From Agrococcus baldri (lineage in GTDB: Bacteria; Actinomycetota; Actinomycetes; Actinomycetales; Microbacteriaceae): a stretch of 64,000 nt of DNA. This document shows, piece after piece, positions 43,326 through 51,702 of this stretch; the stretch's first letter is position 1; each line of letters opens with the position of its first letter. The stretch spans positions 682,001-746,000 of the forward strand of contig FOZN01000002.1 in assembly GCA_900114805.1 (NCBI GenBank), written 5' to 3'. The notes beneath the pieces are model-generated. The model was not told where the DNA came from and ran no database searches. It was given only the letters and a program-made list of their open reading frames with translations. The position numbers and the translations under genes are program-made.

Positions 43326-44234
43326 CTAGTCCCGCGAGCTGAAGTCAGTGTCGCACCAGCGCTCCCAGAGCTTGACTAGGGCTGCGTAGTCCTCGCGCTC
43401 GAAGCCCTCGGCCATCGCCATCTCGTAGACGCTGTGTGCCGCGGGAATCGTAAACACGGGCACACCCGCGTCCTGCGCCATCGCCAACGCCAGCGTGGAG
43501 TCCTTGCGTGCAGCCTCGAGCGACATCCCGCCCTCGTAGTCACCGGAGAAGGCGCGCTCGGCCATGCGGTGCGTCAGCGGCCGCATTAGGCCGCCGTCGG
43601 GTGCCGCGAGGATGTCGACCAGCAACTGAGGGTCGAGCCCCGAAGTCTTGCTGAGCGCCATGGCTTCGCCGAGCAGCACCATCACGACGTGCGCGACAGC
43701 GTTGTTCAGCACCTTTGCTGCCATCGCGCTGCCGGAGTGTCCGACGAACCGTCGATTGCGGGTGATCGTGGCGAACAGCGGGTCGAGAGTCTCGACGAGC
43801 GCCCGCTCGCCTGCGAGAAGCAGGCCCGACGTGCCCTCGGTCATCTGCTTGACCCCAGAGAGGATCGCGGAGTCGACGACCGTGATGCCCGTACCCTGTG
43901 TGGCATCGACGAGCGCGGTGATGTCGCTCGGATTGACCGTGCTGGTCTCGACGACGACCGCGGGCGTCGTCTCACTTGCTGCCAGTGCACGCGTGACTGC
44001 CAGGGAGATGGATGGGCGGGGCAGCGACAGCAGGATCACCGAGCACGACTCGGCGAGGGTGGCCTGCTCGGCCACGGTGATGCCGGCCTCGGCGGCGAGC
44101 GACTGGCGTTCGACAGAGGGATCGGAGCCCATCACGGAGAACGAGTTCGCGAGCCGGCCCGCGAGGGCAAGACCCATGTTGCCCAGGCCGATGACCCCGA
44201 TGGGCCGCTCGAGCAGTGCAGAGGTGGTAGTCAC
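43326..44234 (-). CDS. Beta-hydroxyacid dehydrogenase (3-hydroxyisobutyrate type)
   Basis: A 302-residue NAD(P)-dependent enzyme. IGVIGLGNMGLALAGRLANS is the Rossmann motif, DSAILSGVKQMTEGTSGLLL the substrate-loop motif, and GSAMAAKVLNNAVAHVVMVL holds the catalytic Lys. The C-terminus (GMSLEAARKDSTLALAMAQD) is the usual KDLxLA-type motif with an extra acidic Arg-Lys. It would oxidise a 3-hydroxyacid or reduce a tartronate-like semialdehyde. AAAGGAG seven bases before GTG 44234 sets the start. It is divergent from the aldehyde dehydrogenase, sharing the operator region, and 16 bases from the regulator gene. Confidence 0.85.
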   Translation of the reverse strand: MTTTSALLERPIGVIGLGNMGLALAGRLANSFSVMGSDPSVERQSLAAEAGITVAEQATLAESCSVILLSLPRPSISLAVTRALAASETTPAVVVETSTVNPSDITALVDATQGTGITVVDSAILSGVKQMTEGTSGLLLAGERALVETLDPLFATITRNRRFVGHSGSAMAAKVLNNAVAHVVMVLLGEAMALSKTSGLDPQLLVDILAAPDGGLMRPLTHRMAERAFSGDYEGGMSLEAARKDSTLALAMAQDAGVPVFTIPAAHSVYEMAMAEGFEREDYAALVKLWERWCDTDFSSRD

Positions 44235-44260
44235 GAAGAGGCTCCTTTGACTGGAATTGT

Positions 44261-44303
44261 ATGCAGGTTGCATTCAATGCGTGTGCATTCTATAGTTCCA
44301 TGT
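44261..44303. promoter_or_regulatory. Twin palindromic operators and leaderless promoter
   Basis: Two palindromes, ATGCA-N3-TGCAT (44261-44273) and AATGC-N4-GCATT (44276-44289), lie between the divergent dehydrogenase genes. The -35 element TTGCAT (44268-44273) and -10 TATAGT (44291-44296) are 17 bases apart, and the ATG at 44304 is seven bases beyond the -10, with no ribosome site. The aldehyde dehydrogenase message is thus probably leaderless, with both palindromes covering the promoter. They are the best candidates for GntR binding. Confidence 0.65.
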
Positions 44304-49180: not shown

Positions 49181-49350
49181 GCTGCTGCTCTCTTCGTCTC
49201 TGACCTCAGACGGATGCGCGCGGCACGGCCAACGACGCATCCGCCGTTGGAGTGAATGGGGTGTGGTCGCATCCGATCGGGACGCGCCAACAGAACATTC
49301 TCTCACCTCTGCGGACCGGCTGTCACCCACCCCGACTACAGTGACGAGCA

Positions 49351-49431
49351 AGCTCACGAGCTGCAGCCATCGGTACCTGGCCGGCTGCACGGCAACCCCT
49401 CCGCTGAGCGGGGTGCCCCAGGGGAAGAGCC
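49351..49431 (+). promoter_or_regulatory. SAM-I/IV-type riboswitch
   Basis: The 81-base element has the SAM-I/IV layout. P1 is GCTC (49352-49355) with GAGC (49427-49430). The junction TCACGAG (49354-49360) follows. P2 is GCAGCC (49363-49368) with GGCTGC (49383-49388). The conserved GGCAACC (49391-49397) leads into P3 with CCGC/GCGG (49401-49411). The core GGGGTGCCCCAGGGG (49410-49424) closes the switch. This matches the SAM-IV consensus as I recall it (GGCAACCCTCC...GGGGTGCCCCGGG). A -10 TACAGT at 49337-49342 puts the transcript start at the 5' edge. The switch should sense S-adenosylmethionine and control the unknown gene at 49503. Confidence 0.75.
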
Positions 49432-49474
49432 GGCCCAGCGCGCCCGCGCGGGGCAAGTCAGCGAGCGCGGTCCG

Positions 49475-49495
49475 CCGTCCTCGCCGAGAGGACGG
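49475..49495 (+). promoter_or_regulatory. Hairpin masking the ribosome-binding site
   Basis: CCGTCCTC (49475-49482) pairs perfectly with GAGGACGG (49488-49495) around a 5-base loop. The Shine-Dalgarno GAGAGGA (49486-49492) for ATG 49503 lies in its right arm, so when the stem forms translation should be blocked. Together with the upstream SAM element this looks like a translational on/off platform. Confidence 0.65.
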
Positions 49496-49502
49496 ATCCG
49501 CC

Positions 49503-49949
49503 ATGCACACCCAGCCCCCATGCTTCGACGGCCAGCCGCTGCCGACGCACCACGACGGTCTCTGGCCTGAGCGCATCCCGAAGCCGACGCCCGGAGCCGG
49601 CATCAGCTGGATCAAGGCCGCCGCCCGCGCGCAGCGCGCCTGCCCGCACGACGGCGACCGCCGCAGCGCCGACGCGTACAGCGACCGGGAGCAGTGCGTG
49701 CTGTGCGACAGGATCCTGCCGCTCGCGCCGCTGCCCGAGGTCGACCTCGACGACGCGACGAGCTCGCTCGCGTGGGCGGTCGCGTGCCTGCGGCGGCCGC
49801 CGACGTTCCCCGGCGTGCTCGCACTGGTCGAGCTCTCGCGCAGTGTGCGGCGGGCGGATGCGTCGTGGGCGTCGCGGCTGTTCGGCGACGAGATCGCGGG
49901 ACTGCGCAGGCTCGGGCACACCCCGCGGCAGTACCTGCAGATGGGGTGA
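49503..49949 (+). CDS. Unknown protein controlled by SAM riboswitch
   Basis: A 148-residue soluble protein that I do not recognise. The N-terminal 40 residues are rich in Pro, His and Trp (PPCFDGQPLPTHHDGLWPER). A Cys/His cluster follows (RACPHDGDRRSADAYSDREQ, then CVLCDRI), a possible small metal site. The C-terminal half is helical (ATSSLAWAVACLRRPPTFPG, LALVELSRSVRRADASWASR, LFGDEIAGLRRLGHTPRQYL). It has no signal peptide or membrane segment. Its leader carries a SAM-I/IV-type riboswitch and a ribosome-site hairpin, so a role in methionine, SAM or sulfur metabolism is expected, but none can be read from the sequence. It is followed by a 33-bp tandem repeat. Confidence 0.65.
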   Translation: MHTQPPCFDGQPLPTHHDGLWPERIPKPTPGAGISWIKAAARAQRACPHDGDRRSADAYSDREQCVLCDRILPLAPLPEVDLDDATSSLAWAVACLRRPPTFPGVLALVELSRSVRRADASWASRLFGDEIAGLRRLGHTPRQYLQMG

Positions 49950-50018
49950 CCGGGCCGGCAGGTTGACCGGACAGATGGGTGACCGGGCCGGCGGGTCGAC
50001 CGGATAGATGGGTGACGG
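49945..50018. repeat. 33-bp tandem repeat, 2.3 copies
   Basis: The unit beginning GGTGACCGGGCCGGC starts at 49945, 49978 and (partial) 50011, a strict 33-base period with a few substitutions between copies. It begins at the end of the riboswitch-controlled gene and runs to just before the VanZ-like gene. The period is a multiple of three but the repeat lies after the stop codon. No spacers or CRISPR features are present. Confidence 0.85.
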
Positions 50019-50049
50019 ACCGGAAGCGCCGCCGTGGCACGATCGAGCG

Positions 50050-50469: not shown

Positions 50470-51702
50470 TCAGCGAGCCGCGGTTCTGCGGATGCGCTCG
50501 GCGAAGCCGTCGAGGATCGCCAGCACTTCGTCGCTCTGCCACACACGATTGCGTCGGCCGACGCTCGTCTGGCGCAGCACGCCCGCGTCGACCAGCGTCA
50601 TCAGCGCTCGCCCTGCTGCGGGTGCCGAGATGCCGAGGCCTTGCATCACGGCGCGGCTGTGCAGCACCGGCTGCGCGATGGCGAGGTCGATGAGGCGCCA
50701 GGCCGAGGAATCGGAGCGTGCGGCGGTGCGGGCACGCATCGCCGCGCGGGCGTGCGCCAGCTCGTCGACGAGGCCTCGGCCGAACTCCGCCGCCTGCCTG
50801 CTCGAGCGCGCGAAGGTCTCGAGGATGGGCCGGATGTCGCCGTCGCGGTATGCGCCGAGCGCCGCGAAGTAGCCCTCGGTGTCGGTCAGCAGCCCGGCAG
50901 AGATGGGCGTCGCGATGCGGCGAGCGGTGCCTGCCCGGCGCAGCATCGCATGCACGAGCGCGCGGCCGGTGCGCCCGTTGCCGTCGGTGAACGGGTGGAT
51001 GGTCTCGAACTGCGCGTGCGCGAGCGTCGCGTGGGCGAGGGCGGGGATGTCGTCCCGGGCGACGAACGCCGCCAGATCGCGCATGTCGGCATCGACCCTG
51101 CCGGGCAGCGGCGGCACGAACAGCGCCGTACGCGGGCCGGCGCCCCCGCCGATCCAGACCTGCACCGTGCGCAGGGCGCCAGGGGTGTGCACGGTCTGCT
51201 CGGCCATGAGCGCCGCGTGCATCGCGAGGATGCTCGCGAGACCGGGCTCGGCGGCGAGTCGAAGCGCCGCGTCCATCGCGCGCACGTTGGCGACCACGAG
51301 CGATGCGTTGCCGCTGGATGGCTCGCCGATCTCGGCGAGCGCGAGTCGGCGGGCGCCGACGGTCAGCCCTTCGATCTTTGACGACGAGGCGCTCTCGGTG
51401 CGCAGCAGCACCGACTGCAGGGGGGCGAGCTCGAGCTCGCTGCGGAGCGCCGTATCGGCGTGCGCGTCGAGCCGCACGAGCGCCATCGTCGCCTCGTCGA
51501 GATCCGCCGCGAGATCCGTCGGGAGCGACACGGTGCGCTCTGCGATCTGCGGCACGACCGCGGCGCGGTACTCGCCGCGGTTCAGCGAGGCCTGTCGACG
51601 GGAGAGCCCGTACTCGGCATCCACCTGCCACATCGCGGTCTCGTGACCTACCGCCGGCCAGCCTTTGCTGGCCGCTGCAGGATCTCGCGTATCCATGCTC
51701 AC
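50470..51702 (-). CDS. Fic-family AMP-transferase with N-terminal inhibitory motif
   Basis: A 410-residue protein. The core Fic motif HPFTDGNGRTGRALVHAMLR starts at His236, the catalytic base, with Asp/Asn of the phosphate loop. ESASSSKIEG (S107-x3-E111-G112) is the inhibitory alpha-helix motif found in class II Fic proteins, whose Glu blocks ATP binding. The C-terminal 90 residues are a winged helix (MQGLGISAPAAGRALMTLVD, GVLRQTSVGRRNRVW). It probably transfers AMP to a target protein and may bind DNA. A promoter with TATAAT (51709-51714) ends six bases before GTG 51702, so a leaderless message starting at this GTG is likely; ATG 51696 is an alternative. Confidence 0.85.
   Translation of the reverse strand: MSMDTRDPAAASKGWPAVGHETAMWQVDAEYGLSRRQASLNRGEYRAAVVPQIAERTVSLPTDLAADLDEATMALVRLDAHADTALRSELELAPLQSVLLRTESASSSKIEGLTVGARRLALAEIGEPSSGNASLVVANVRAMDAALRLAAEPGLASILAMHAALMAEQTVHTPGALRTVQVWIGGGAGPRTALFVPPLPGRVDADMRDLAAFVARDDIPALAHATLAHAQFETIHPFTDGNGRTGRALVHAMLRRAGTARRIATPISAGLLTDTEGYFAALGAYRDGDIRPILETFARSSRQAAEFGRGLVDELAHARAAMRARTAARSDSSAWRLIDLAIAQPVLHSRAVMQGLGISAPAAGRALMTLVDAGVLRQTSVGRRNRVWQSDEVLAILDGFAERIRRTAAR

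Follow-up and report, generated by a model that had tools for sequence, protein, structure and literature searches.

A SAM-IV riboswitch ahead of an unrecognised small-protein gene in Agrococcus baldri and its actinobacterial relatives

SAM riboswitches mark genes that are tied to SAM supply. What, then, does such a riboswitch control when it stands before a gene of no familiar kind? The question arises in a 64-kb stretch of Agrococcus baldri DNA, here termed the window, in which a first-pass annotation read a SAM riboswitch in front of an unrecognised gene. That reading is supported by the covariance-model score of the leader, by covariation and by the recurrence of the leader–gene pair. The target in the window is not a recognisable sulfur, methionine or SAM gene; such genes are the typical targets of SAM-IV riboswitches and do not define the class. 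The explanation considered probable here is that a SAM-IV riboswitch controls, at the level of translation, a member of an undescribed family of small proteins, and that the protein is non-enzymatic, has a binding or regulatory role and helps the cell at low SAM or methionine. The features concerned are collected in Table 1.

Table 1. Coordinates of the leader, the orphan gene and a neighbouring gene, in positions of the window.
Feature	Position	Strand	Basis or remark
TGTC promoter element	49321-49324	+	12 nt before the -10 element
-10 element, TACAGT	49337-49342	+	15 nt upstream of aptamer
SAM-IV aptamer	49352-49465	+	RF00634 match
Aptamer P1	49352-49355/49427-49430	+	Rfam alignment
Aptamer P2a	49360-49367/49384-49390	+	Rfam alignment
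Aptamer PK-1	CCTGG 49376-49380 with CCAGG 49418-49422	+	Rfam alignment
PK-2 5' arm, CGCTGA	49402-49407	+	pairing in the window, compensatory changes in relatives
Aptamer P5	49433-49442/49445-49454	+	Rfam alignment
PK-2 3' arm, TCAGCG	49458-49463	+	last 3 nt also in proposed ON hairpin
Proposed anti-anti-SD (ON) hairpin	49461-49484	+	GCGAG.GCGG 49461-49465, 49467-49470 (whole arm 49461-49470); loop TCCG; CCGT.CTCGC 49475-49478, 49480-49484 (whole arm 49475-49484)
SD-sequestering (OFF) hairpin, 8 bp	49475-49495	+	arms 49475-49482/49488-49495, loop 49483-49487; covers GAGG 49488-49491
Orphan family A protein, 148 aa	49503-49949	+	open frame, ATG 49503
Cys/His cluster, C47-x-H49 ... C65-x2-C68	49641-49706	+	in five other Agrococcus loci
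Four-helix core, residues 84-148	49752-49946	+	AlphaFold2 model, residue conservation
Fic/DOC family gene	50473-51702	-	PF02661, E 9.8e-18; faces orphan gene

The leader is a SAM-IV riboswitch. A cmscan run of the whole window against 4227 Rfam families, with the best match per clan kept where matches overlapped, gave SAM-IV (RF00634) as the sole match above cut-off, at 75.2 bits (cut-off 38, E 1.5e-11) and over the full length of the model (1–116). The SAM motifs listed by the first-pass annotation are found in the leader at the places it gave, and its call of a SAM riboswitch holds; its assignment to the SAM-I/IV type does not, SAM-IV being the best match of the clan. The A. baldri genome (2.9 Mb, 7 contigs) has a single SAM-IV site above cut-off. 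A second hit, at 33.1 bits and below cut-off, lies antisense within an amidohydrolase gene and for that reason is treated as false.

The window aptamer forms 30 of the 31 named base pairs, the exception being the outermost PK-2 pair, C50–A113. Covariation was counted over P1, P2, P3 and both pseudoknots, with P5 outside the count, in 46 of 64 aptamers (47 were kept as non-redundant, and L172 was then left out). In this alignment 97.6% of 1425 cells are paired, compared with 36–45% in slid controls. Fourteen of the 31 pairs show changes on both sides, and cells with both sides changed number 102, versus 25.2 in shuffles, none of 500 of which reaches 102. Compensatory changes are present in P1, P2, P3, PK-1 and PK-2; they occur in four of the seven PK-2 pairs, with 89.7% of cells paired, and in one of the five PK-1 pairs. 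The count of further pair types (23, versus 25.4 in shuffles) is not in excess, and this measure gives the structure no support. Both of the computational checks on the leader that the first-pass annotation had proposed, a covariance-model search and covariation in related leaders, thus come out in favour of the riboswitch. To judge from its sequence, SAM would be the ligand of the window copy.

The promoter holds a fixed position. Of 63 leaders, 59 have a TANNNT hexamer between −22 and −5 relative to the aptamer, whereas a control window has it in 3 of the 63; in 57 it starts 15–16 nt upstream of the aptamer; from this constancy, transcripts probably begin at the aptamer. In agreement, an RNA-seq start at 1,374,005 has been reported for the SAM-IV leader of Corynebacterium glutamicum, 2 nt upstream of an aptamer that runs from 1,374,007 (PMC3890552). 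An exact TGTC precedes the −10 element by 12 nt in 37 of 58 related leaders. The arrangement TGTC-N12-TANNNT also occurs 34 times in non-site DNA (loci L117–L196 and the window), versus 4–16 times at other spacings from 8 to 29, and with such an excess outside the leaders the TGTC does not look gene-specific. Autoregulation via TGTC was considered and dropped, as the spacing is common in unrelated DNA of these genomes. TGTC-N12-TANNNT is perhaps a general actinobacterial promoter type.

Between aptamer and start codon, the perfect 8 bp hairpin over the Shine–Dalgarno sequence described by the first-pass annotation is real. It reads CCGTCCTC(GCCGA)GAGGACGG, is calculated at −16.0 kcal/mol, and covers a GAGG that ends 11 nt before the ATG. 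What that annotation missed is a competing hairpin (−13.8 kcal/mol) that has 7 nt in common with the first and, in the window, overlaps PK-2 by 3 nt only. Both mutually exclusive hairpins are found in 45 of 66 leaders (shuffle mean 15.5, maximum 24), in a set that contains some near-identical or duplicated loci and with thresholds chosen after examples had been seen; the 66 come from 95 leaders, 29 having been dropped for a tail that was not found or a start distance outside 28–75 nt. The other 21 of the 66 show no clear exclusive pair. In many tails a strand that follows PK-2 has two possible pairing partners, the PK-2 arm region and the Shine–Dalgarno sequence. Rhodococcus, Agromyces and Alpinimonas tails, for example, have GA(T/C)GGAGG, then CCTCC, then a GAGG-type Shine–Dalgarno sequence. 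When the PK-2 arm is blocked, the predicted fold shifts to the Shine–Dalgarno hairpin in L006, L017, L118 and L132; the shift does not appear in all 23 folded loci, L146 being one without it. The overlap of the competing hairpin with PK-2 suggests an off/on switch of translation.

In the mechanism proposed, transcription would start at the first bases of the aptamer. With SAM plentiful, the aptamer and PK-2 would hold the 3′ tail; with the tail so held, the CCGUCCUC arm would pair with the Shine–Dalgarno sequence, and translation would be off. At low SAM, PK-2 would open and the freed tail would pair with the CCGUCCUC arm, which would free the Shine–Dalgarno sequence and allow synthesis of the protein, a member of what is termed family A below. 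That protein would in turn help the cell to live with low SAM or methionine. We infer this direction of switching, off at high SAM and on at low SAM. Folding of the window leader gives the OFF hairpin whether the PK-2 arm is free or blocked, and the free fold of the tail prefers it. The ON arrangement is the free fold of three other Agrococcus loci (L140, L158 and L169), and not of the window or L119. Because the OFF hairpin of the window is the more stable of the two and is preferred in the free fold, switching there must be kinetic or weak; by the same predictions, tight repression of this copy is one possibility and dependence on the order of folding another.

Searches of Pfam, PHROGs and NCBIfam return nothing at E ≤ 1 for the 148-residue protein, in keeping with the first-pass annotation, which had assigned it to no known family. 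By single-sequence search it is found in 2 of 199 family-level genomes, with weak matches in two more, and a 99% identical protein is encoded in the relative G049 (locus L172). The start position and an MHxQ-like N-terminus are common to the window protein and five other Agrococcus loci. Profile comparison places the protein as a divergent member of a larger family, family A, whose shared domain has the form W..LL..PP ... W ... GFTP. The window protein matches the family A profile at E 2.5e-17 when the profile contains the window protein itself, and at E 7.8e-4 when it is free of any Agrococcus protein; a BLASTP match at E 3e-4 links it to L015. The window protein ends after GHTPRQYLQMG and is without the C-terminal second half, W..W...G..P..A. 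The L140 and L158 proteins have the same endpoint and that of L172 runs 8 residues further (the L119 sequence stops at the end of its locus, and L169 does not allow a judgement here).

Short direct repeats (gggtgaccgggccggc...) at 49950–50040 separate the orphan gene from a neighbour whose VanZ match is weak (E 0.003) and does not reach the cut-off, and in G049 the orphan frame extends to 156 aa in the region that matches 49950–50040. Short-repeat arrays, of the agtggccaatcccccgcgtg and gaggagccactcgatcacgg types, lie beside an amidohydrolase gene in L002:2390–2800 (G000:C6, about 43,890–44,300).

The Cys/His cluster pointed out by the first-pass annotation exists, and among the Agrococcus loci it appears once with CRH instead of CPH. 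It is not a property of the family at large: among 48 aligned members only Agrococcus has it, and thus it does not define the family. This N-terminal cluster is a possible zinc knuckle. Across the 48 members, W91 and P100 are invariant and W122 and G138 near-invariant. Invariance or near-invariance is confined to W, P, G, F, A and the start M, with no conserved catalytic-type residues, a pattern that argues against an enzyme. AlphaFold2 gives the window protein pLDDT block means of 84–97 from residue 71 on, with a four-helix core, and a Rhodococcus member a mean pLDDT of 92. A fold search with either model found no PDB match at E ≤ 0.001, and the best E of a PDB sequence search was 0.17. On these models and residue patterns, the likeliest reading of family A is a small protein with a binding or regulatory role, produced when SAM is low.

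How widely is the pairing of leader and protein shared? SAM-IV scores above cut-off at 42 sites in 41 of the 199 family-level genomes, and the genes downstream fall into family A (21 sites), family B (8), family C (3), family D (4) and others (6). The last group comprises one metK (checked), two genes read by eye, of which we take one from its translation to be an FMN monooxygenase and the other an MFS transporter, and three unassigned genes, one of which (L026) has a weak hit to the family B profile (E 4e-4). The family A and B profiles are homologous (hhalign 96%, E 4.5e-9), and in L159, from a Microbacterium MAG, a single frame encodes a fusion of families C and A.

An RNA pattern of the aptamer alone was applied to an 84,980-species collection and gave 95 stretches, of which 80 were examined as loci with 82 sites. 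Profiles of families A–D, trained on the family-level genome set, match downstream of 64 of the 82 sites (A 54, C 6, B 3, D 1), some of the 82 being from the same species as training loci. Thus, the same pairing occurs in related genomes, as the first-pass annotation had proposed to check; because the sites were chosen by RNA pattern first, this is the more independent line of evidence for the pairing. Thirty-five of the 64 are in genera that presumably lie outside the training family: 21 in Brevibacterium, 8 in Rhodococcus and 6 in others (Speluncibacter, Sanguibacter, Flaviflexus, Actinomyces, a Ruaniaceae and an Aeromicrobium). The remaining 18 sites consist of 5 in Geodermatophilus, 2 cut by the locus end, 1 that looks A-like and 10 unassigned. 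The five Geodermatophilus genes are taken to be metY from their translations, the one that was checked being Cys_Met_Meta_PP, and these sites serve as an internal control for the RNA-pattern test.

The reverse search took the A5 profile to 396 genomes of the order. Of the 32 genomes in which it found family A, 29 have SAM-IV upstream (in 26 of the 30 loci fetched it lies no more than 450 nt away and in one about 600 nt away, and the window genome and G049 make up the rest); the 29 of 32 is partly circular, the order-sample profile having been built from pattern-selected loci. Family A is without an upstream SAM-IV in G560, G462 and G308 of the order sample and in G159 of the family set. By coordinate comparison SAM-IV accompanies family A in 21 of 22 genomes of the family set, a figure that is largely circular because the profile contains the very loci found. 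A class-wide sample of 394 genomes has family A in three only, all already known, and a sample of 121 genomes around Rhodococcus yields two, of which one is the genome that the query came from and the other a weak match. Taken as a reading of these sequences, family A is an unrecognised, widely shared protein family under predicted SAM-IV control. No description of the SAM-IV-linked orphan families A–D was found in the open-licence PMC literature on SAM-IV and orphan genes.

Other orphan proteins were observed behind SAM-IV. Family C (L188:2338–3060, L125, L144, L139, L159, L020 and L021) has a domain of the form GxT..V...FPGW.W...L......P....V...F....W.VEW.DG.VT, and the one member tested has no Pfam match. 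Family D (L042, L044, L045, L027 and L191) consists of small proteins with an initial PGHN/K-H motif; its hosts are small-genome relatives and an Aeromicrobium MAG. A further protein, LTRAxAYxxLG..H.IP, follows SAM-IV in L142 (two sites) and L194 and by eye resembles the N-terminal portion of family C; in L142 the riboswitch–gene unit occurs twice in succession.

The bearing of these proteins on sulfur metabolism comes from the company they keep. Thirty high-scoring SAM-IV sites served as a control; of the 75 genes called near them 74 were scanned, and these include 14 Cys/Met PLP enzymes and 10 class V aminotransferases. Two Rhodococcus genomes and Speluncibacter have 3–4 SAM-IV sites each, and eight such sites were read: three precede class V aminotransferase-type genes, two metY-type genes, one a gene that we take from its translation to be metX, and two family A genes. 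One of each type was checked and matched Aminotran_5 and Cys_Met_Meta_PP, respectively, the metX-read gene matching only the general Abhydrolase_1. Family A is thus tied to the SAM regulon, as it shares SAM-IV control with sulfur-type genes in the L132 and L171 genomes. Published SAM-IV leaders include one before O-acetylhomoserine sulfhydrylase in M. avium (PMC3774663), one before cysteine desulfurase in S. lividans (PMC8079986) and 16 in Mycolicibacterium prophages (PMC8190616). The conserved aptamer core and the sulfur-type genes behind other SAM-IV copies of the Rhodococcus and Speluncibacter genomes give indirect support to a place for the window gene in the methionine, SAM and sulfur area.

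A regulatory protein made at low SAM could act by binding DNA, and the family would then extend the SAM regulon to other genes. The helical AlphaFold2 model of the Rhodococcus member, in which we read a helix pair around GFTP as HTH-like, is consistent with this, as are the residue pattern with no catalytic-type positions and the neighbourhood, where no gene cluster recurs in more than three genera except the gene itself and its antisense frame. Foldseek returns weak matches to MerR-type regulators (ranks 27–38, E 5–6, TM 0.25–0.32), but eight MerR domains of the same genome give hhalign probabilities of only 0.2% (local) and 0.1% (global), so MerR identity is not borne out. The lack of a PDB match at the threshold given above, the missing C-terminal half of the window protein and the general character of the upstream TGTC also speak against a DNA-binding regulator, which is considered unlikely.

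The proteins might instead be effectors of an alarm for SAM depletion: a drain on SAM, by a phage enzyme or by stress, would release a protective or growth-stopping protein, and conflict would drive divergence and mobility. The patchy spread of SAM-IV over 41 of the 199 genomes would fit, as would the presence of riboswitch and gene together on a 201-kb conjugative Rhodococcus plasmid (SAM-IV 67.9 bits), where protein and leader are 100% identical to an R. zopfii draft-genome locus (L170). Among 130 of 267 neighbours scanned, PADLOC matches include SoFic (2), BrxL (1), type I restriction (1) and ShosA (1), compared with only SspA and DndA, 10 each, among the 74 control genes, of which 10 are class V aminotransferases. 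However, among the matches listed (25 of 46 PADLOC families) each amounts to 1–2 of the 130 neighbours, and the control stretches were shorter, 1.5 versus 4.5 kb a side. Fic-like neighbours occur at five loci in three genera, which include family A genes in Rhodococcus and Agromyces, and the window has its own Fic/DOC gene (Table 1); neighbours that we take by eye, from their translations, to be DUF262-like occur at three loci of three genera. None of the 48 family A members themselves matches PADLOC at E ≤ 0.01. In Rhodococcus, dN/dS is 0.06–0.12 in nine of the first ten pairs and 0.26 in the tenth, with R. zopfii; to judge from these ratios the Rhodococcus proteins are under purifying selection, and the low values in close pairs count against divergence by conflict. 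A search of 50,697 phage records with the domain of one family A member found nothing, and the aptamer RNA pattern is without a match in the viral contigs; a phage origin was rejected on these two results. The defence reading of the neighbourhood is kept open and is not made likely, and a SAM-depletion alarm is judged distinctly improbable.

The plasmid protein (L264:5001–5459, NZ_CP126457.1) carries the name 'mandelate racemase/muconate lactonizing protein' (WP_072812475.1), for which no support was found.

There is little likelihood that the riboswitch is real and the 148-codon frame incidental, the leader being a relic or controlling nothing of note in the genus. Of the four same-genus genomes sampled, A. 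baldri being counted among the four, two are without leader and gene, and Agrococcus pairs have dN/dS of 0.23–0.94, the upper value indicating that constraint on the protein is modest in the genus; the preference of the free tail for the OFF hairpin also points this way. Against these observations, six Agrococcus loci keep the same start, frame and Cys/His cluster, the core fold is confident and the protein is homologous to proteins under strong selection in Rhodococcus. Drift of the aptamer subgroup to another ligand, such as SAH, might be read from the score of the window copy when compared with up to 120.9 bits at the best classical sites, but many core columns are invariant in the 46 sequences and the same subgroup pattern precedes the five presumed metY genes of Geodermatophilus, which leaves this the least probable of the alternatives.

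The preferred reading is therefore that of a non-enzymatic binding or regulatory protein translated when SAM is low. A more far-reaching proposal, rather doubtful, is that one SAM-IV subgroup is a portable low-SAM trigger, passed across the actinobacteria together with its promoter among unrelated or very distant orphan families (A/B, C and D) and onto conjugative plasmids, and that its targets form a new class of SAM-starvation effectors. If true, such proteins would act on a collapse of SAM, whether stress or a phage caused it, and would rewire or protect the cell. That the SAM-IV subgroup precedes genes for unnamed proteins in a dozen genera or more indicates that part of actinobacterial SAM and methionine physiology is unrecognised; an unrecognised response to low SAM may lie behind these fast-changing, unnamed genes. 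The ligand, the switch, the conserved fold and the model hosts offer handles for study.

Among known systems, MerR-type winged-helix regulators share with family A a weak local fold resemblance, seen in the Rhodococcus member, and differ in having no profile similarity to it. Another is the hypothetical gene cg1478 of C. glutamicum, which is preceded by SAM-IV at 70.47 bits (PMC3890552, PMC4046766). As far as the published descriptions go, it has in common with the present leaders a SAM-IV before a hypothetical gene and a transcript start 2 nt upstream of the aptamer; the likeness is drawn from those descriptions. In a table that also holds many McbR sulfur genes, cg1478 is listed with induction at pH 6 (value 4.89) and with LexA as its regulator (PMC2807442). 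In the portions of the literature consulted, one case of SAM-IV before a hypothetical gene, the cg1478 leader, is already in print, and families A–D are apparently undescribed. The SAM-I/IV riboswitch has the ligand core common to the SAM clan; it is described as being without PK-1 and as having a P4 (PMC6890682), whereas the window leader has PK-1 as CCUGG:CCAGG, and no P4 was seen in it. With SAM-IV (RF00634), compared on the architecture given in the same source (PMC6890682), the leader shares P1, P2a/P2b, P3, P5, PK-1, PK-2, the core sequence and a score above cut-off. It differs from that class in belonging to a subgroup with PK-1 of the CCUGG:CCAGG kind, in having orphan proteins rather than sulfur enzymes as targets, and in that the PK-2 tail in many members is also the predicted anti-anti-Shine–Dalgarno strand.
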